From positions 1 through 64,000 of the forward strand of contig JAUSBC010000017.1 in NCBI GenBank assembly GCA_030652215.1: a DNA stretch of 64,000 nucleotides. Reading direction: 5' to 3'. The notes under the pieces were generated by a model. That model saw only the letters and a list, made by a program, of their open reading frames with translations. It made no database searches and had not been told where the DNA came from. The position numbers were made by a program, and so were the translations under genes. Positions 4,454 to 40,113 of this stretch are shown piece by piece. Each line of letters starts with the position of its first letter. Within the stretch, counting starts at the first letter, position 1. This DNA is from Sideroxyarcus sp. (GTDB taxonomy: Bacteria > Pseudomonadota > Gammaproteobacteria > Burkholderiales > Gallionellaceae).

Positions 4454-4574
4454 CTGGCGTTTCTTGTATCCCTCGGTTGAATGCGCTGCGACAGTGGGCC
4501 GATTCTACTCCGCCAGTCGTGGGCTATTCAAGAAAGGAACCCGATATTGCGGCCCATGCAGGCGGGCAGCATGT

Positions 4575-6098
4575 TCAGTGCAGTATCTCGACCACGCGGC
4601 TGGGCTTCAGGTTCGCATAGGAAGGCATCGCCATGCCGACCGTCGCACCGATGTAGGTCGGGTCCGCGACGACGTAACGCTGCCCCTGAAAGTCCACCGT
4701 GGCAAACTCCGCTTTCACCCGTTTGAGCGTCACGGCTGTGGTCATGTGCCCGGGATAGAGCAGGCCGACCGCCTTGATGCCAAGCAGTTCATGCGCCAGC
4801 CACGCGAACAGCACCGAGCGGTCTTCGCAGTCGTTATAGGGAAAGAACAGGGATTCTTCGACGAAGAAATATTTTTCGTAGCCGAACTGGTCCGCGTCGG
4901 TCTTGTAGGCGAACGCTTTTTGCACAAAGGCGAGCAGGAAATTCACCGCCTCTTCCTCGTCCATTTTCGCGGTATGTTTCTTCAGGTCGGCCAGCAGGTT
5001 GCCGCGTATCAGCGCGCTGCCGTCGGTATCAAAATACAGTTCGAATTCCGATTGCGGAAACGAGCCCATGTATTCCACCAGCCTGCGGTCGTAAGGCACG
5101 TTCAATGCAATCGCCTCGCCCCGGTAATCGAAACTCAGGGCGCGCTGCGCCGGCACAGTGCGCGTGAAGCCGGTCGCGGCGGACTGGATGTCGAGCGGTT
5201 TCAGCTTGTTCGGATAACTGGCTTCATAGGTATAGAAACTGCGTATGCTCTTGCCGCGATCCTCATCCAGCACCGCGTAGTAAGTCTGGCTCCCGACCGC
5301 CGTGAACTTGGTTGAATACACCTGCTGCTTGACGGCCACGAACAGATGCACGTCCGCGCCCGAATAGCCGAGTCTAACGTCGTAACCTGATTTTACGAGG
5401 AAGTACCACAACAGCAGGTTCTGCTCCGCCCTGCGTTCCGGCTGCAGCGCCTGCACGACACTGCGCCACAGCGTCACATGTCCCCAGTCGTCCAGTTTCA
5501 GCGTGCGTCGCGCTTCGTTGACCGCCTGTATCGTCGGTTCATAACGGCTACCACTCATCGTCGCCCAGAATGCGCTCATTGCCTCGGGCTTGGCCGCGCC
5601 GGACAGGCGGTACGTTTTCCACAGCGGATCGTAGACGAAGCGCACCGGGTTGCCGTAAAAAGCCAGTTCGACCGTGTTCGCGGCCACCGGCAGCGGTTTC
5701 GGTTGCGGGGGCGGCGGCGTCAATACAGGTTGAACGATGGGAGCGACCGGCGCAGGGGCTGGAGGTGCGACAGGCGGCGCGACGGGCTGCGGAGGTTTTG
5801 TGATTGGCCGTGCCGGCGCGGCGGGCGCCACCACCGGCACTTGCCGGGGCTTGGGTTCCTTGATGCGGACCTTGCCCTGAAAAGTCTCGAATTCGCGCCA
5901 CTGGCTTTTCAGGTATTCCGCAAACTCGCCATCCTGCTGTTCCTTGTATGCCTGGAATTCGGCTTTTTGCTGCTGCACTTCCTGCTGCTGCCGCTCCCGG
6001 AAGGATTTGAAATCATCTGCGGCGGCGCACGGCCCGCCCGGCAGAACGGCGCAAACCGACACAACCGCGAGCAACACGGGCACAGAACGCAGCCTCAT
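4575..6098 (-). CDS. Secreted protein with N-terminal coiled segment, Pro-rich linker and C-terminal transglutaminase-like domain
   Basis: Signal peptide MRLRSVPVLLAVVSVCAVLPGGPCAAAD; coil DDFKSFRERQQQEVQQQKAEFQAYKEQQDGEFAEY; linker rich in P/A; C-terminal FPYNDCEDRSVLFAWLAHELLGIKAVGLLYPGHMTTAV resembles a transglutaminase-like Cys/His/Asp region. Upstream ATG at 6116 also possible. Confidence 0.65.
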   Translation of the reverse strand: MRLRSVPVLLAVVSVCAVLPGGPCAAADDFKSFRERQQQEVQQQKAEFQAYKEQQDGEFAEYLKSQWREFETFQGKVRIKEPKPRQVPVVAPAAPARPITKPPQPVAPPVAPPAPAPVAPIVQPVLTPPPPQPKPLPVAANTVELAFYGNPVRFVYDPLWKTYRLSGAAKPEAMSAFWATMSGSRYEPTIQAVNEARRTLKLDDWGHVTLWRSVVQALQPERRAEQNLLLWYFLVKSGYDVRLGYSGADVHLFVAVKQQVYSTKFTAVGSQTYYAVLDEDRGKSIRSFYTYEASYPNKLKPLDIQSAATGFTRTVPAQRALSFDYRGEAIALNVPYDRRLVEYMGSFPQSEFELYFDTDGSALIRGNLLADLKKHTAKMDEEEAVNFLLAFVQKAFAYKTDADQFGYEKYFFVEESLFFPYNDCEDRSVLFAWLAHELLGIKAVGLLYPGHMTTAVTLKRVKAEFATVDFQGQRYVVADPTYIGATVGMAMPSYANLKPSRVVEILH

Positions 6099-6140
6099 TC
6101 CGGACGGGTGGCTCACGGATTATTCGGGCAGGGTCGCGCT

Positions 6141-6308
6141 TTACTTCTTCTCGGCTTCGGACTTCTGCTTTGCCACATCGGCAGCCATTTCTTCCTGGCT
6201 TTTTTTCGCGCGGTATTGCTGCCAATCGTCCTTGTCCTTGGCACTGGTGCAACCCGAAGCGGCAAACACGATTCCGGCAGACAACAACACTAGCAAAAAT
6301 TTATTCAT
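6141..6308 (-). CDS. 55-aa putative lipoprotein (not in ORF track)
   Basis: Minus strand ATG at 6308: MNKFLLVLLSAGIVFAASGCTSAKDKDDWQQYRAKKSQEEMAADVAKQKSEAEKK stop (6141-6143). Lipobox ASGC; tail resembles the C-terminus of the adjacent LPP20-like lipoprotein. Confidence 0.7.
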   Translation of the reverse strand: MNKFLLVLLSAGIVFAASGCTSAKDKDDWQQYRAKKSQEEMAADVAKQKSEAEKK

Positions 6309-6400
6309 GATGACCTCCAGTCGATATCAAAACAATTCTGAAAACATCCCGGTGCCGTGCGAACGCGCCGCCACGGCCCGGCTGCCGCATGTTTGCGCGA

Positions 6401-7036
6401 TCAGTTCTTGGGCTTGTCTGCCTCGGGGGAAGCCGCCACCGGCTCGACTTTCTGTTTGGCTATATCAGCCGCCAGTTCGTCCTGTCCCTTTTGTGCGCGG
6501 AATTGCTGCCAAGCAGCCTTGTCGTTGTTCTGGCTGGTTTTGATCGCCGCTTCGGTGATCTGTTGCGCGCTGGCCGCATCGAGTCCGACGAGGACATACA
6601 GCGTTCCATCCGGGCCGGTCACGCTTTTCAGCAACCGGGTTCCGACCAGCGTTTCATTGGTAATCTGTTTGGTCACCGAGCTGTTGACCTGATCGACCGT
6701 GGCCTGATCCGCCGCGCCAGTCGTTTCGGCATACTGCTTGATCATGTTGGTCACCTGGATGCGCATCATCTGGGCCAGTTGTACGCGCCCATCGGCTGCG
6801 GCCATCTGTTTTACGAAGGCGATACCCGCCTGTGATTTCGGTGCCGAGCCCACTGCCGTCACGGCTACACCGTCAACCGGCTCGTCGCAAACCCAACCCG
6901 GCGCCGCTTCCCTCGAATTCGGGAACATGCAGGATGGTACTGCGGCTACCGGCTCCACCTTGGCGGGAGCGCTCGCGCAGCCTGACAGGCCTATCAAAGC
7001 AACCGCAGAAAACGTGACGAAAAGTATGTTGCGCAT
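6401..7036 (-). CDS. LPP20-family-like lipoprotein
   Basis: Start at MRNILFVTFSAVALIGLSGCASAPAKVEP (lipobox LSGC); AAADGRVQLAQMMRIQVTNMIKQYAET... typical of LPP20-like proteins. Confidence 0.6.
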   Translation of the reverse strand: MRNILFVTFSAVALIGLSGCASAPAKVEPVAAVPSCMFPNSREAAPGWVCDEPVDGVAVTAVGSAPKSQAGIAFVKQMAAADGRVQLAQMMRIQVTNMIKQYAETTGAADQATVDQVNSSVTKQITNETLVGTRLLKSVTGPDGTLYVLVGLDAASAQQITEAAIKTSQNNDKAAWQQFRAQKGQDELAADIAKQKVEPVAASPEADKPKN

Positions 7037-7158
7037 GAAATATCTCCTTAGTTTAATAAACACCCACAAATACTGGCACGGCATTCGCGCCATCGAACCC
7101 TCAATCCATCAATCGGCAATCATGTCTTGCTGAAACTGCGCTGCCGCAAAGCACGCAA

Positions 7159-7929
7159 TCAGTCGTGCACTTCCTTGAGCCACTCCGCCGCATAGTTCTC
7201 CAGGCTTTCCATGTCCTTGCCGGACTCGTCGCTCAACGCGCGCTCGGTCACCACATTCCCGTCGAACGTTGCCATCCTGTCGGCACCCAGCGCGAATTCG
7301 CGCTTGAATTCGATGAACTCGCGTTGCGTTTTAGCCTTGTACTCGGAGAAGTTGCGCTTCTCTTCGGCGATGGCATCGCTCGCTTCTTTTTTGAATGCCT
7401 CGAATTCGTCTTCCTGCGTTTGCCGGTGTATCTCGTACGCCTCGCCCGGACTCGTGACGCTCACCAGACCCTTGCGCATCCCGATCTCCTTGCGCTCCGG
7501 CAAGTCGGCAACCAGGAAGCGGGTGCCGCGCACGCCTATGGTCGCCGTGGCGGTCTTGACGCCCACGGGGCGTTGCGAACCCTGTATCGCATTCAGCGCG
7601 TAATAAATCATCCCCGTTACATGGCGAAATATACCCGCGTAATCGCCGGACTTGTCGACTTCGATCTTGCTGTTCTTCTCGACCACGATATATCCAACAT
7701 CGCCGACCTTGACCACGGCCCGGCCATTCGGCCCGGTGACCAGATAGTGGCGCGCGGGAAGTACGCTCTTGGTGAAAACCTTGCGCGACGGCTGGTCCTG
7801 CTGTGTGATCGCAACATCGCCCTCGGCTCTGACGACCTCTATCGCTTCGCCGGCCAAACACCCGCCGGCGGCCAGGCTGCCGAACAGGCCCGCCGCAAGT
7901 ACCAAAATCGAACTGTGGATACGCATCAT
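7159..7929 (-). CDS. FecR-domain secreted protein with C-terminal coiled segment
   Basis: Signal peptide; NGRAVVKVGDVGYIVVEKNSKIEVDKS...VGVKTATATIGVRGTRFLV is FecR-like; C-terminal EDEFEAFKKEASDAIAEEKRNFSEYKAKTQREFIEF. Confidence 0.7.
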   Translation of the reverse strand: MMRIHSSILVLAAGLFGSLAAGGCLAGEAIEVVRAEGDVAITQQDQPSRKVFTKSVLPARHYLVTGPNGRAVVKVGDVGYIVVEKNSKIEVDKSGDYAGIFRHVTGMIYYALNAIQGSQRPVGVKTATATIGVRGTRFLVADLPERKEIGMRKGLVSVTSPGEAYEIHRQTQEDEFEAFKKEASDAIAEEKRNFSEYKAKTQREFIEFKREFALGADRMATFDGNVVTERALSDESGKDMESLENYAAEWLKEVHD

Positions 7930-7939
7930 GCCTCCGTGT
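7916..7939. repeat. 24-bp direct repeat copy 1 (covers RBS and start of the FecR-domain gene)
   Basis: tggatacgcatcatgcctccgtgt, identical to 8109-8132. Confidence 0.9.
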
Positions 7940-8024
7940 CTATCTCGTCAACATCCGCCACCAGTATTGCAATTCATAAATAACGAATCATGTTGTTTGG
8001 TGCTAACTGCTGTCATGCATTCAT

Positions 8025-8100
8025 GTAGATTGGGCAAAGCGCAGCGTGCCCAACAGGCATCGTTGTCAATGTTGGGCACGCTGCGCTTTGCCCAACCTAC
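8025..8100. repeat. GTAG-bounded REP-like inverted doublet
   Basis: GTAGATTGGGCAAAGCGCAGCGTGCCCAAC...GTTGGGCACGCTGCGCTTTGCCCAACCTAC; near-perfect inverted repeat with GTAG/CTAC ends. Confidence 0.8.
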
Positions 8101-8108
8101 ACATCTGC

Positions 8109-8132
8109 TGGATACGCATCATGCCTCCGTGT
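8109..8132. repeat. 24-bp direct repeat copy 2
   Basis: tggatacgcatcatgcctccgtgt, identical to 7916-7939, on the other side of the REP-like element. Confidence 0.9.
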
Positions 8133-8153
8133 ATGTCTTGTCTCCGGCCGCCG

Positions 8154-9641
8154 CTAGTTCAACTCGTGGCGCAGGAATCTGGAAAATTTTTCGCGCCAGC
8201 GTTTGATCACGTTGATGCCCAGCACGTCCATGACCATTTCCTGCGAAATCGGATTCCACCCCGTCGTGCCCTGGAAGCGATCCGCAAAAACGGGCGTGCC
8301 GTTCTCCAGCAGGAAAGTGGTCATCCCGCCCTCGAACTGGTATTCGCGGCCGCGGCCCTGCGGGTCCCGGTCCGCGCGGTTGCGCATCTTCCCCAGCGCC
8401 ACCACGCCCAGCACCAGCTTGCCCGGTTCGCCCATGCTTTTCGGAATCTCGCCCTTCTGTAACGCCTGCAGTTGCGGCGCGGAGAGCGCTTGCATCCTGA
8501 CCTCGACATCCGCGCCCAGCGGGCGGATGACATTGTTCAGGCTGTCGCACGCCTTGTTCCATGCGCCCCGGTCGGTGCCGGAATTGAAATAGCAGACGAG
8601 CGTGGTGGCGCGGCCCTCGAAATACTGGCGCCACAATGTCTTTTCCATTTCCTCGGCCGAGCAGACCAGCGTCTCGGCTTTTTTCCGGGCGATCTCGCGC
8701 CGGTCGTTGAGTTGTTTCGAGTCTGCGGCCTGCTGAAAATAGCTCTTGGCGCCGCAGGCGCTTTTCCTCAATTCTTCGACCTCGCCCAGCTTGAACAGGA
8801 TATCCCCGGGCTCGAATACCGGCGGCAAGCCGCCGCCATGCTTCGCCAGCAAACCCTTGTAGGCGCCGGCCGCAGCGACGAGCGTCCTGGATTTTTCTAC
8901 CTCACCGGTCTGCCCCGAGGCCTGGTTGACCTGCAAGTCGGCCGCAGCCAGTGCCGCTTTGGCCTGGTCCAGATCGTCGCGCGTCTGTTGCAGATCGCGT
9001 TTGAAACCGTTCAACAGCCGTGCATAGTGCTCCGCCGAACTGGCCTCGGGAATGAATTCCAGCGCAATGCGCGGCAACACTTCCAGCGCGGCATCCACGG
9101 CGGACAAGCGGCCGTTCAGGGACGCGCCTTCATTTTGCACTACCGCCAATTGCTCGTTCAGCACGCCGAACAGCGTTTTGGCCAGCCCTTCGCGCTTGCC
9201 CTGCTCCACGTGTTTTTTAGAGACTCTTGCGCGCAGCCAGATCGAACAGGTTTTGGGGTCTTCCCAGGTTGCGACGGATTCGACGTTGCGCAATGACGCA
9301 TTCGTCGATGTCTTGGTGATGGATTGCAAACTGGAATCGGTGAGTTCCGTCCCGGCAACGTTGCGGCTCGACTGCTCCAGCACCAGGGAATTTTTGACGG
9401 AAACCTCGATCATCTCGGAAAGGTTTTTCAGCGCATTCTGTTTGGCCGTCGCAATGCGCTCGGCCAGCGGGGCCTGCGGATCGTCCGATACGCCTGCGGC
9501 AAACAAATGCTCTTCGGTGACGGATTCCGGGCTATCCACCCAGTCGGGCCGGGGTCCGCTGCCGGAACATTGCACGGCGAATGCCGTCGAGGAAAACCAC
9601 AACCCGGCGAAGGCGGCAAATAATGCAGCGCGAAGCATCAT
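8154..9641 (-). CDS. Secreted LPP20-like domain protein with long helical region
   Basis: MMLRAALFAAFAGLWFSSTAFAVQCSGSGPRPDWVDSPESVTEEHLFAAGVSDDPQAPLAERIATAKQNALKNLSEMIEVSVKN; LPP20-type 'PxW.......A.G......A...A...A..L' pattern. ORF-track start at 9704 lacks a signal peptide. Confidence 0.55.
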   Translation of the reverse strand: MMLRAALFAAFAGLWFSSTAFAVQCSGSGPRPDWVDSPESVTEEHLFAAGVSDDPQAPLAERIATAKQNALKNLSEMIEVSVKNSLVLEQSSRNVAGTELTDSSLQSITKTSTNASLRNVESVATWEDPKTCSIWLRARVSKKHVEQGKREGLAKTLFGVLNEQLAVVQNEGASLNGRLSAVDAALEVLPRIALEFIPEASSAEHYARLLNGFKRDLQQTRDDLDQAKAALAAADLQVNQASGQTGEVEKSRTLVAAAGAYKGLLAKHGGGLPPVFEPGDILFKLGEVEELRKSACGAKSYFQQAADSKQLNDRREIARKKAETLVCSAEEMEKTLWRQYFEGRATTLVCYFNSGTDRGAWNKACDSLNNVIRPLGADVEVRMQALSAPQLQALQKGEIPKSMGEPGKLVLGVVALGKMRNRADRDPQGRGREYQFEGGMTTFLLENGTPVFADRFQGTTGWNPISQEMVMDVLGINVIKRWREKFSRFLRHELN

Positions 9642-9690
9642 GAGTATCTGTCCTTGGAAATCCCGCACATCTGTCTGAACCGGCGCGACA

Positions 9691-10800
9691 CTAATCGCGC
9701 GCAATCTGATAATAAAGGTGGCGCGTGCCTTCGGAAACCTGCAGATAGTCGTTTCCGCCGGAACGCAGATGCGTCAGCAACGGTTTGTCGAACGAGTCTT
9801 CGAAGTACACCCTGCCGAGTTCCACGCCGCGCTCCGTATCGGCGAAGATCAGATGGCTTTGCGAAACGGCGGCGACGTAGCGCCATGTTTGCAGGAACCT
9901 GCAATCCGTGATTTTCGATCCGCCCTTCTGATAACGCTGATCCTTGATCGAAACGTCGAAATGCTCGACTTCATTTCTGGCATCCATGTCCACGATGTGC
10001 AACTGGGATGCATAGGTGCGCGTCGGTCTGCCGAAGGCGAACGTCGTATTCATGATATAGGTGCCAATGGCGCCCATGCGGCCATCGGTGGAACCCCTCA
10101 CGCAGGTGGGCTCTTCGGAGATCGAATCGTCCGACTTCAATTTCGCGTATTTCACCATGTCGTCATCTACGGCGCGCAGCGGCGGCGGCACGACCTCGAC
10201 CGCATCGGCGGCCAGTTCGGCGATGTTTTTCAGCGAGAATTTGACGAGTCTGGGATTGGTGACATCCATCACTTGCAGGCCGAATTTTTCCACCGCAATA
10301 TCGACCGCGCGCTGGATCGCATTATTCACTGCGGCCGACTCCGTCAAGCCGTCGGAGGGCGGCATGCCCTTGGTGCCCATGGGCGCAGAAGCCGACGATT
10401 TGATTTTTGCGTCTTCGCCGATAAAGCGGATATCGGCGACCGCAGTGGCCGTGAAGATGGAAGACAGCCCGCTGGTTTTGCCTACACCCAGATAGACTCT
10501 ATATATCCCGGATATCTGGAAACGCCCGGCATTCTCGACGAAATCTTCGGCTGTAATCAGCGCGCCCGGGTCGCCCAAACGGGCCCAGGATTTTTTGAGT
10601 TCTTCGGCTTTTTTCTGATCGAGGACGATCACGCCGTTGTCGCTGAGCAGTTGCTCCATACGCGTCTGCGCAACGCGCAAATACTGCTTGGCGGCGGCAT
10701 TCTGTCCGTAAACGACGATTGCGACTTTCTCCTGCTCGGCACTCGCCGGCAAAACGCTAAAACACAACACCAGAATCAATGCACGGAATAGCAATTTCAT
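9691..10800 (-). CDS. Secreted protein with N-terminal CsgG/FlgT-like domain, C-terminal beta-rich region
   Basis: Signal peptide MKLLFRALILVLCFSVLPASA; RMEQLLSDNGVIVLDQKKAEELKKSW... AVNNAIQRAVDIAVEKFGLQV resembles CsgG/LPP20-neighbour proteins; family call tentative. Confidence 0.45.
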   Translation of the reverse strand: MKLLFRALILVLCFSVLPASAEQEKVAIVVYGQNAAAKQYLRVAQTRMEQLLSDNGVIVLDQKKAEELKKSWARLGDPGALITAEDFVENAGRFQISGIYRVYLGVGKTSGLSSIFTATAVADIRFIGEDAKIKSSASAPMGTKGMPPSDGLTESAAVNNAIQRAVDIAVEKFGLQVMDVTNPRLVKFSLKNIAELAADAVEVVPPPLRAVDDDMVKYAKLKSDDSISEEPTCVRGSTDGRMGAIGTYIMNTTFAFGRPTRTYASQLHIVDMDARNEVEHFDVSIKDQRYQKGGSKITDCRFLQTWRYVAAVSQSHLIFADTERGVELGRVYFEDSFDKPLLTHLRSGGNDYLQVSEGTRHLYYQIARD

Positions 10801-10827
10801 TTGGAACCGTTCCGGAAAATTCCCGTT

Positions 10828-10856
10828 AAAAAAACAGGCCGCAAATGCGGCCTGTT
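10828..10856 (-). terminator. Rho-independent terminator downstream of beta-barrel gene
   Basis: Minus strand AACAGGCCGCATTTGCGGCCTGTTTTTTT: GC-rich hairpin followed by T run. Confidence 0.8.
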
Positions 10857-10866
10857 GTTGCCCGGA

Positions 10867-11430
10867 TTAGTATCTGGCAGTCAGGCCGAAAAGCACCCGT
10901 GACCCGGATTGGGTCATGTCGAAATCCGACGAAGTCAGCGTGTTATAGAAAAGTTGCAGCGCGGCATCCGCCGAAACTTCTTCCGTAATGAAGTAGGACA
11001 CGCCGCCACCGCCCACCATACCCACGCCACCAAAGCTGGTCGATGTACCGGCCGAAGTGTTATCCACCGCAACCACGTTGAAGCCTCCCTGCACGAACGG
11101 CACCCATTGCGATTTTGCCGAATCGGCGAAGTAATACTTCACGCCCACGCCCACTGCCGTACCGAGCGACTCGCTGCTACCCGAGTCGTTGCCGAATACG
11201 GACAGATTCACGCGGCCAACCAGCCTGGAAGTGAAATAGCGACCGACATCAACGTTAATGAACGTATTTGTCGAGTCCGAGGATGAAGTACCAAACCCCG
11301 TATCGACATCGCTCGTCGTACTCTCAATACTCCCTGCAACAGACATTTCCCACATACCCTTTTCCGCCATTGCATAAGGGGCGGCCAACATGGATGCCGC
11401 AATAATTGCCAATCGAATTGTGTTCTTCAT
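10867..11430 (-). CDS. Small outer-membrane beta-barrel protein
   Basis: Signal peptide MKNTIRLAIIAASMLAAPYAMA; alternating-hydrophobic strands; C-terminal aromatic (..FGLTARY). Confidence 0.65.
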   Translation of the reverse strand: MKNTIRLAIIAASMLAAPYAMAEKGMWEMSVAGSIESTTSDVDTGFGTSSSDSTNTFINVDVGRYFTSRLVGRVNLSVFGNDSGSSESLGTAVGVGVKYYFADSAKSQWVPFVQGGFNVVAVDNTSAGTSTSFGGVGMVGGGGVSYFITEEVSADAALQLFYNTLTSSDFDMTQSGSRVLFGLTARY

Positions 11431-11532
11431 TTTTTCTCCGCCTTTAAAAGTTTAGTCACAAGCTCCCCGGGCACCAGACACGACAACTACCCGCTGCCGT
11501 GTTTATCCTACACCAAATTTTCGGATTAATTC

Positions 11533-11550
11533 CTAGGTAACAATACCTAG
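11533..11550. promoter_or_regulatory. Candidate operator palindrome CTAGGTA-ACAA-TACCTAG
   Basis: Perfect 7-bp arms with a 4-nt spacer, ~100 bp upstream of the beta-barrel start. Confidence 0.4.
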
Positions 11551-11695
11551 CGTTTGTGGTGTCCGGACTGTGCCGTGCGTTCAGGAGAGGATACAAACTA
11601 AAGTGTCGATAAAACAAGGCGAAGACCCGATAACCCTGTTGCTCACCATGCCTTGCGCGCCTGATGGCGGAGGACTAGCAGCGTAACGTCGCCCC

Positions 11696-23509: not shown

Positions 23510-24889
23510 ATGTTCGTCATGCGCAATCTTCTACCTCTGCAAGTTGCGGTCGCTCTCGCATTGTGTGCCTGGCTCTGGATCAAGACCACCGCCGTGGATC
23601 CCCTGCCGGACTGGCGCTTGGGCGAACTGGTGGTCATCGTGCCGCCCGCCGAAATGGAAACCGAGAATGCCTTCGAAACCGAACTGGCGGAGCAATTTGC
23701 CCTGCAATTGCAGGTAAGACTGAAGGTTATTCCCCTACCGAGCGACCAGGCACTGCCTGCGCTTGTTGCACATATGGCACACATCGCTACCTCCGCGCGC
23801 AGCACGAACGACTACGCTTTACGCTTCGGCAAGGCTTACCAGTCGCTGGATGAGTTGCTGATCTGCCACAGCGTGACACCGAAGGATATAGACGAACTGG
23901 CTGGACGCGAGCTGGTGGTTGCCGCCGGATCGCCGCAGCAAGCCGCCCTGCGCGAGGTGCAACGCGAGCACGACAAGTTGCACTGGAAATCGCGGCGCAA
24001 TACGTCCCCGGCCGAACTGCTGGAAGAAGTTGCCGACGGCAAACTCGACTGCACGGTAGCCAACGAGGAACAACTGGCCTCCTCGCGCAATTTCTATCCC
24101 GGACTGGGTGCTGCGCTGGACATTGGTTCGCCTTCCGAGATGTCCTGGGCATTCACCGGCGACACGCAACTCTTCGACGAAGCACAGCAGTTCTTCGCGC
24201 GCATCAAACAGGACGGCACATTGCGCCAGTTGCTGGACCGCTACTACGGCCACAACGACCGCCTGCAAACGATGGATGCCGAAACGTTTATCGCGCGCAC
24301 GCGCACCGTGCTGCCGCATTACAAGCACTGGTTCAAGGAAGCCGCCGACCTCACGGGCATCGAGTGGCAATTGCTTGCCGCATTGTCGTATCAGGAATCG
24401 CACTGGAATCCGAATGCAACCTCGTACACCAAGGTGCGCGGCATGATGATGCTGACCGAAGAGACCGCCGACCGCATGGGCGTGGAAAACCGCCTTGATG
24501 CGCACAGCAGCATCCTCGCCGGCGCGCGCTATCTGCAATTGCTCAAGGAACAATTGCCGTTGCGCATGAAAGAGGAAGACCGGCTGTGGATGGCGCTGGC
24601 CGCCTACAATCAGGGCATGGGCCATCTGGAGGATGCGCGCATTCTGGCCGGCAAGTCCGGGCTTAATCCTGACGTGTGGGCCGACGTGAAACGCATGATG
24701 CCCCTGCTCTCGCGCCCGTCGTATTACCAGGACACCAAGCACGGCAAGGCGCGCGGCGGCGAAGCGGTGATACTGGTGGAAACCGTGCGCCTGTATCACG
24801 ACATGCTGAAACGTCTGGACGCTCAGGACAGCTTTGCCCAATTACCGCCCGTATTGAAACGCAGCTTCGTCGGCCGCTTGATGGAATAA
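23510..24889 (+). CDS. mltF: Membrane-bound lytic murein transglycosylase F-like protein
   Basis: N-terminal SBP_bac_3-like domain followed by SLT domain (LAALSYQESHWNPNATSYTKVRGMMMLTEETADRMGV). Confidence 0.88.
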   Translation: MFVMRNLLPLQVAVALALCAWLWIKTTAVDPLPDWRLGELVVIVPPAEMETENAFETELAEQFALQLQVRLKVIPLPSDQALPALVAHMAHIATSARSTNDYALRFGKAYQSLDELLICHSVTPKDIDELAGRELVVAAGSPQQAALREVQREHDKLHWKSRRNTSPAELLEEVADGKLDCTVANEEQLASSRNFYPGLGAALDIGSPSEMSWAFTGDTQLFDEAQQFFARIKQDGTLRQLLDRYYGHNDRLQTMDAETFIARTRTVLPHYKHWFKEAADLTGIEWQLLAALSYQESHWNPNATSYTKVRGMMMLTEETADRMGVENRLDAHSSILAGARYLQLLKEQLPLRMKEEDRLWMALAAYNQGMGHLEDARILAGKSGLNPDVWADVKRMMPLLSRPSYYQDTKHGKARGGEAVILVETVRLYHDMLKRLDAQDSFAQLPPVLKRSFVGRLME

Positions 24890-40080: not shown

Positions 40081-40113
40081 AATGTTGGGCACGCTTCGCA
40101 TTGCCCAACCTAC
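40081..40113. repeat. Single REP-like hairpin (half copy)
   Basis: aatgTTGGGCACGCTTCGCATTGCCCAACCTAC. Confidence 0.6.

Follow-up and report, generated by a model that had tools for sequence, protein, structure and literature searches.

The locus comprises seven open reading frames between positions 4575 and 11430, all on the minus strand of the 64,000-nucleotide stretch of DNA that was analysed (the window). As originally predicted, the seven co-oriented genes code for exported proteins, each of which is predicted to carry a signal peptide or a lipobox. Genes and features are listed in Table 1. The G+C content of the cassette is 0.582, compared to 0.597 for the window. None of the seven proteins matched a PADLOC model for anti-phage defence systems and, when all seven were searched against PHROGs, only LPP20a and LP55 gave matches, which were weak and to families of unknown function.

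Table 1. Genes and features of the cassette, with positions referring to the window.
Feature	Position	Strand	Remarks
TG-like, 513 aa	4575..6116	-	secreted; transglutaminase/LapG-like, cysteine peptidase-type; helical EF..YK segment at the N-terminus (about aa 34-80), Pro-rich linker
LP55, 55-aa lipoprotein	6141..6308	-	lipobox ASG-C; shares the C-terminal segment of LPP20a
LPP20a, 211-aa LPP20 lipoprotein of outer-membrane type	6401..7036	-	PF02169 4e-10; core partner of TG-like
FecR-domain protein, secreted	7159..7929	-	PF04773 1.1e-8; helical segment at the C-terminus with homology to the N-terminus of TG-like
LPP20b, long secreted LPP20-domain protein	8154..9641 (alternative start 9704)	-	PF02169 4.6e-6
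369-aa exported protein ("CsgG-like" in the original prediction)	9691..10800	-	accompanies the barrel and LPP20b
Intrinsic terminator, conserved	10833..10856	-	between barrel and CsgG-like gene; strongest hairpin of the scan
Small outer-membrane beta-barrel	10867..11430	-	PF13505 (OMP_b-brl) 1.4e-7; cassette member
Cassette interval	4454..11695		hyf-like gene on one side, CBS-PAS-GGDEF-EAL gene on the other

The two LPP20 domains, the FecR domain and the beta-barrel, which had been proposed from the letters alone, were all recovered by Pfam. LPP20a and LPP20b score 40 and 27 bits against PF02169 (cut-off 25.9) and are thus members of the LPP20 family; the LPP20b orthologue in the related genome G071 matches with 2.9e-10. 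The family profile of LPP20a matches Helicobacter pylori LPP20 (5OK8) with 1.1e-12, and its lipobox cysteine (Cys20) is invariant in 17 homologues. LPP20b has a signal peptide and no lipobox. LPP20a differs from H. pylori LPP20 and FlgP in that it represents a subfamily of its own with a conserved C-terminal segment (WQQFKAQKGQDEL), and in that its partner is the TG-like enzyme and not the flagellum. The contig carries a second, more divergent LPP20a-like gene at a distance of about 95 kb, beyond the window (G000 C12:101985-102443; L064:9943-10686).

The assignment of the 369-aa protein as CsgG/FlgT-like is unproven because the protein has no convincing match in Pfam, NCBIfam or PDB. Neither the window protein nor its orthologue in G071 gave a match to the CsgG domain, and hhalign comparisons with CsgG, LpoB, GNA1162 and DUF6175 proteins, based on few sequences per profile, were not significant. 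The single-sequence AlphaFold model, with a pLDDT of 33, is too poor for a judgement on the fold. "CsgG-like" is used below as a name only.

The label "transglutaminase-like" is based on an invariant Cys-His-Asp set together with weak matches. In 18 homologues of the TG-like protein, D429-C430-E431-D432-R433, H457 and D485-P486-T487 are invariant. Cys430, His457 and Asp485 probably form a catalytic triad, as would be expected for a cysteine enzyme of the transglutaminase clan. The profile evidence is weak, however: the protein itself has no Pfam match and nothing convincing in NCBIfam, the family reaches only 0.0028 for DUF553 and 0.088 for Transglut_core (0.021 with the consensus sequence), and hhalign of its profile with five transglutaminase cores gave scores no better than permutations. 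The single-sequence AlphaFold model of the protein is poor (pLDDT 43).

The best PDB match of the TG-like domain profile is LapG (4U65), with DCED around the catalytic cysteine in register and a non-significant E-value of 0.54. LapG has a C-H-D triad with nearby calcium ions (PMC4359373), and HvyA is a secreted enzyme of the same BTLCP group that controls a surface structure (PMC4241560). The TG-like protein resembles these enzymes in being secreted and in its Cys-His-Asp order. It differs in the His-Asp spacing (28 residues, compared to 15 in HvyA; PMC4241560), in having a different N-terminal helical and Pro-rich region, and in being nearly always paired with LPP20a; the cassette carries neither a LapD-type receptor nor a LapA adhesin. 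Membership in LapG/BTLCP is not supported by this E-value, and Peptidase_C93 (PF06035) matches neither the window protein nor any of 13 family members.

Together, the seven genes constitute an accessory cassette, which is gained or lost. The gene order (barrel, CsgG-like, LPP20b, FecR, LPP20a, LP55, TG-like) is identical in the window and in four related genomes (G963, G933, G990, G071), with two barrels in the cassettes of G071 and G933. The TG-like gene is found in 13 of the 34 genomes of the genus. In the sister genomes G976, G932 and G999, which lack the locus, the CBS-PAS-GGDEF-EAL and hyf-like genes are adjacent and only 135-165 bp apart, so that the predicted boundaries of the locus are correct. 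The direct neighbour of this GGDEF-EAL gene in G987 and G972 is a SulP gene, and SulP is the other flank of the cassette in G071, G933 and G990. Partial sites also occur: G958 has the complete cassette except for TG-like, and G993 has LPP20a alone at an otherwise empty site (L193:9880-10500), either as a remnant or as a minimal form. The parts are thus not obligate together. The common gene order, the empty sites and these partial sites indicate gain and loss as a unit as well as piecemeal erosion. In G071, the TG-like gene faces a convergent gene for a SulP-family transporter (L020:12527-14218), and in G907, a genome of a different family, a transporter gene which is similar by eye is placed likewise (L054:6158-7894).

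It had been suggested that, in view of the terminator, the barrel may be a separate transcription unit. The terminator itself is conserved, since its stem (10856-10833) is kept at the same place in the window and in G963, G933, G990 and G071, with loops and flanks changed in the latter three. The barrel nevertheless belongs to the cassette and is missing from the empty sites, too.

LPP20b and FecR are separated by about 190 bp (7942-8131) that are absent from the sister genome G963, which has a 31-bp gap at this position. Two copies of a 25-bp palindromic repeat (TTGGGCAAAGCGCAGCGTGCCCAAC) lie within this stretch, and its end is a duplication that covers the start region of FecR; it has the appearance of a small mobile element of the palindromic kind. 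The repeat occurs a third time, on its own and with 2 mismatches, at 40084-40108 (chance expectation 0).

Co-occurrence of the genes extends over families and orders and into one further phylum, so that the locus is not a peculiarity of this strain. The closest association is that between LPP20a and TG-like. Within the order, strong matches to TG-like were obtained in six of 298 other genomes (window sequence as query; E < 1e-100), and LPP20a, searched with a profile that included members found beside TG, matched in exactly these six (6/6 vs 0/292, Fisher p 1.1e-12). In a class-wide sample of 273 other genomes, LPP20a is present in 15, among them 11 of the 12 TG genomes (p 1.3e-15), the TG profile having included members found beside LPP20a; in the exception, G837, the TG gene is at a contig end. 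The grouping is thus not due to chance, given these p-values and the gene order repeated in four other genomes. In 15 genomes, a single contig carries both genes, with 38 bp to 3.9 kb between them. Their contigs differ in G718, G713 and G672, which shows that the co-occurrence does not reflect linkage alone. Searches of plasmids with the CsgG-like protein and LPP20a gave no matches.

A tree of 28 TG-like proteins places that of G687 (L053), a genome from another order, inside the family of the window with full support. This suggests horizontal transfer, but may alternatively be due to a binning error. The core pair is also found in Bacteroides finegoldii (NZ_OY725910), in an operon of genes in one direction for LpoB-like, DUF6175, long LPP20, short LPP20, unknown and TG-like proteins. 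Compared to the window cassette, this operon lacks FecR and the barrel, and sequence identity is about 30%. The sequence NZ_OY725910.1 (L018) is labelled as plasmid 8 of B. finegoldii; with dusB, dprA and a U32 peptidase gene among its genes, it is probably a chromosomal piece rather than a plasmid.

The cassette consists of two modules. The first (M1) comprises the FecR-domain protein, LPP20a, the small lipoprotein(s) and the TG-like enzyme. The second (M2) comprises the barrel, the CsgG-like protein and the long LPP20b, and is replaceable by LpoB/TPR/LPP20 or by other lipoproteins. The CsgG-like gene occurs in 10 of 151 genomes of the family, eight of which also have TG-like, the linkage not being constant. 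At eight loci the barrel adjoins the CsgG-like/LPP20b pair, while the remaining two CsgG-like loci end at contig ends. In the congener G931, the place of M2 beside TG-like is taken by LpoB (PF13036, 2e-39), a TPR protein and an LPP20 protein. The same trio, LpoB-LPP20-COG3014, lies beside TG/LPP20a in several distant genomes (L059, L061, L090, with two of three members in L063). PF13036 is also present in G718 and is marginal in Bacteroides. In the window cassette it was not found by Pfam: the 369-aa protein has no detectable similarity to LpoB, an activator of PBP1b, and no PBP gene adjoins. G814 has yet another combination (CsgG [PF03783], GNA1162-like, long LPP20, FecR, TG-like and a divergent LPP20a).

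Lytic transglycosylases are a further recurrent neighbour, adjoining LPP20a or TG at L058, L059, L061, L090 and L091; an SLT domain was confirmed in those of the first three loci, and Mltc_N in two of these three. Distant operons have the composition COG3014-LpoB-LPP20-MltC-LPP20a-TG (G752) and LPP20s-LPP20a-MltC-TG (G783). Among 42 genomes tested, 5 of the 18 with TG have full-length matches to the MltC type, as do G890 (LPP20a only) and G670 (neither). LpoB and MltC neighbours are thus limited to some lineages, and the window cassette has neither. The MltC-like gene of this genome is located elsewhere and matches only from profile position 83. The product of a window gene at 23510-24889 resembles a solute-binding protein in its N-terminal part and a transglycosylase in its C-terminal part; it is MltF-like by eye and has a weak match to the MltC profile (4e-5).

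Segments shared between the proteins of the locus had been taken to argue for a single assembly. The segments are statistically real, with hhalign scores above those of all permutations. The first (EFxxYKxxQDxEFAxFLKxQW) is found at the N-terminus of TG-like, at the C-terminus of the FecR protein and at the N-terminus of MltC-type proteins, though not in the MltC-like protein of this genome (hhalign E 1e-7 to 6e-7, scores 41-43 vs a permutation maximum of 20, with 60 column permutations each; TG-like vs FecR: E 1e-7, score 43 vs 20). In TG-like, it was modelled as one long helix (aa 32-82) in what is overall a poor model. The second connects the C-terminus of LPP20a with LP55 (E 1e-8, score 37 vs a permutation maximum of 11). 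Between the first and the second kind of segment, no significant relation was seen. The locus is made up of two separable modules and is not one fixed assembly. That this is an unnamed multi-gene envelope assembly is borne out by its occurrence outside the strain and by the open-access full-text literature (subscription journals being outside the search), in which no matching named operon or system was found.

As best explanation, held tentatively and with somewhat less than even confidence, we propose an accessory scaffold that is associated with the outer membrane and the peptidoglycan and docks a cysteine peptidase-like enzyme. The cassette products would assemble into a complex located on the peptidoglycan and the inner face of the outer membrane, with LPP20a, LP55 and the M2 proteins as a scaffold tethered to the outer membrane. 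For the TG-like protein, we propose the activity of a cysteine peptidase or amidase in the periplasm (Cys-His-Asp), possibly with the assistance of Ca2+ as in LapG. It would be docked and positioned via its long N-terminal helix, which is shared by the FecR protein and, in other lineages, by an MltC-type lytic transglycosylase. Its most likely job would be the local processing of peptidoglycan-associated proteins or peptides, coupled to cell-wall remodelling. A role at the cell wall is suggested by the associated LpoB-type and MltC-type proteins, and processing of surface proteins by the resemblance of TG-like to LapG; the two readings are not mutually exclusive. A wider proposal, which we regard as possible but doubtful, is that of a so far undescribed, horizontally transferable envelope machine. 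LPP20 lipoprotein and cysteine peptidase, as its invariable core, would take up interchangeable outer-membrane scaffold modules via the common docking helix, and this helix would recruit a lytic transglycosylase as well.

Among the alternatives, a LapG-like release or export of an adhesin or surface protein, in which TG-like clips a substrate anchored in the outer membrane and the CsgG-like protein and barrel serve as exit or retention site, survives best and is still rather unlikely. The LapG match with its catalytic and Ca motif in register, the precedent of HvyA and the fact that M2 always includes a barrel speak for it. The match is not significant, though, Peptidase_C93 is found in none of the 13 members, the neighbouring GGDEF-EAL protein is of the CBS-PAS type without a LapD domain match and is encoded just as often next to sites without the cassette (12/21 genomes, compared to 10/13 with it; p 0.21), and the cassette has no large adhesin and no confirmed CsgG.

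A structural ring or disc resembling Vibrio FlgO/FlgP/FlgT and the basal-disc proteins of Campylobacter, reused outside the flagellum and with TG-like as a pseudo-enzyme scaffold, seems improbable to us. Several LPP20-family proteins per locus and the LpoB/CsgG/GNA1162-type proteins of relatives would fit such a structure. On the other hand, Pfam detected no FlgT domain in the window proteins, the flanks are hyf-like or SulP genes, no flagellar genes were recognised among the loci examined, the core is present in Bacteroides, which is non-flagellated, and the invariant Cys-His-Asp residues argue for catalysis.

The signalling role that had originally been mentioned finds no specific support here. 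Least probable is an envelope signalling cluster in which the FecR-domain protein senses and a neighbouring GGDEF-EAL or CHASE2 cyclase responds: FecR lies beside a CHASE2-cyclase in G129 and G1005 and a GGDEF-EAL gene flanks the locus in at least eight genomes, but the CHASE2 link is rare, the cassette offers FecR neither a sigma factor nor a transmembrane partner, and the GGDEF-EAL gene flanks the empty site as well. Control of the cassette by c-di-GMP was rejected for this last reason, the frequencies given above lending it no support; the apparent link is explained by the shared insertion site.

If LPP20a and TG-like form one functional unit, this would provide a role for many genes that, in bacteria ranging from proteobacteria to gut Bacteroides, are annotated as "LPP20 family lipoprotein" or are transglutaminase-like and without a name, and would tie these genes to peptidoglycan enzymes. 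The presence or absence of the cassette at a fixed site allows a clean test, both natural and genetic.
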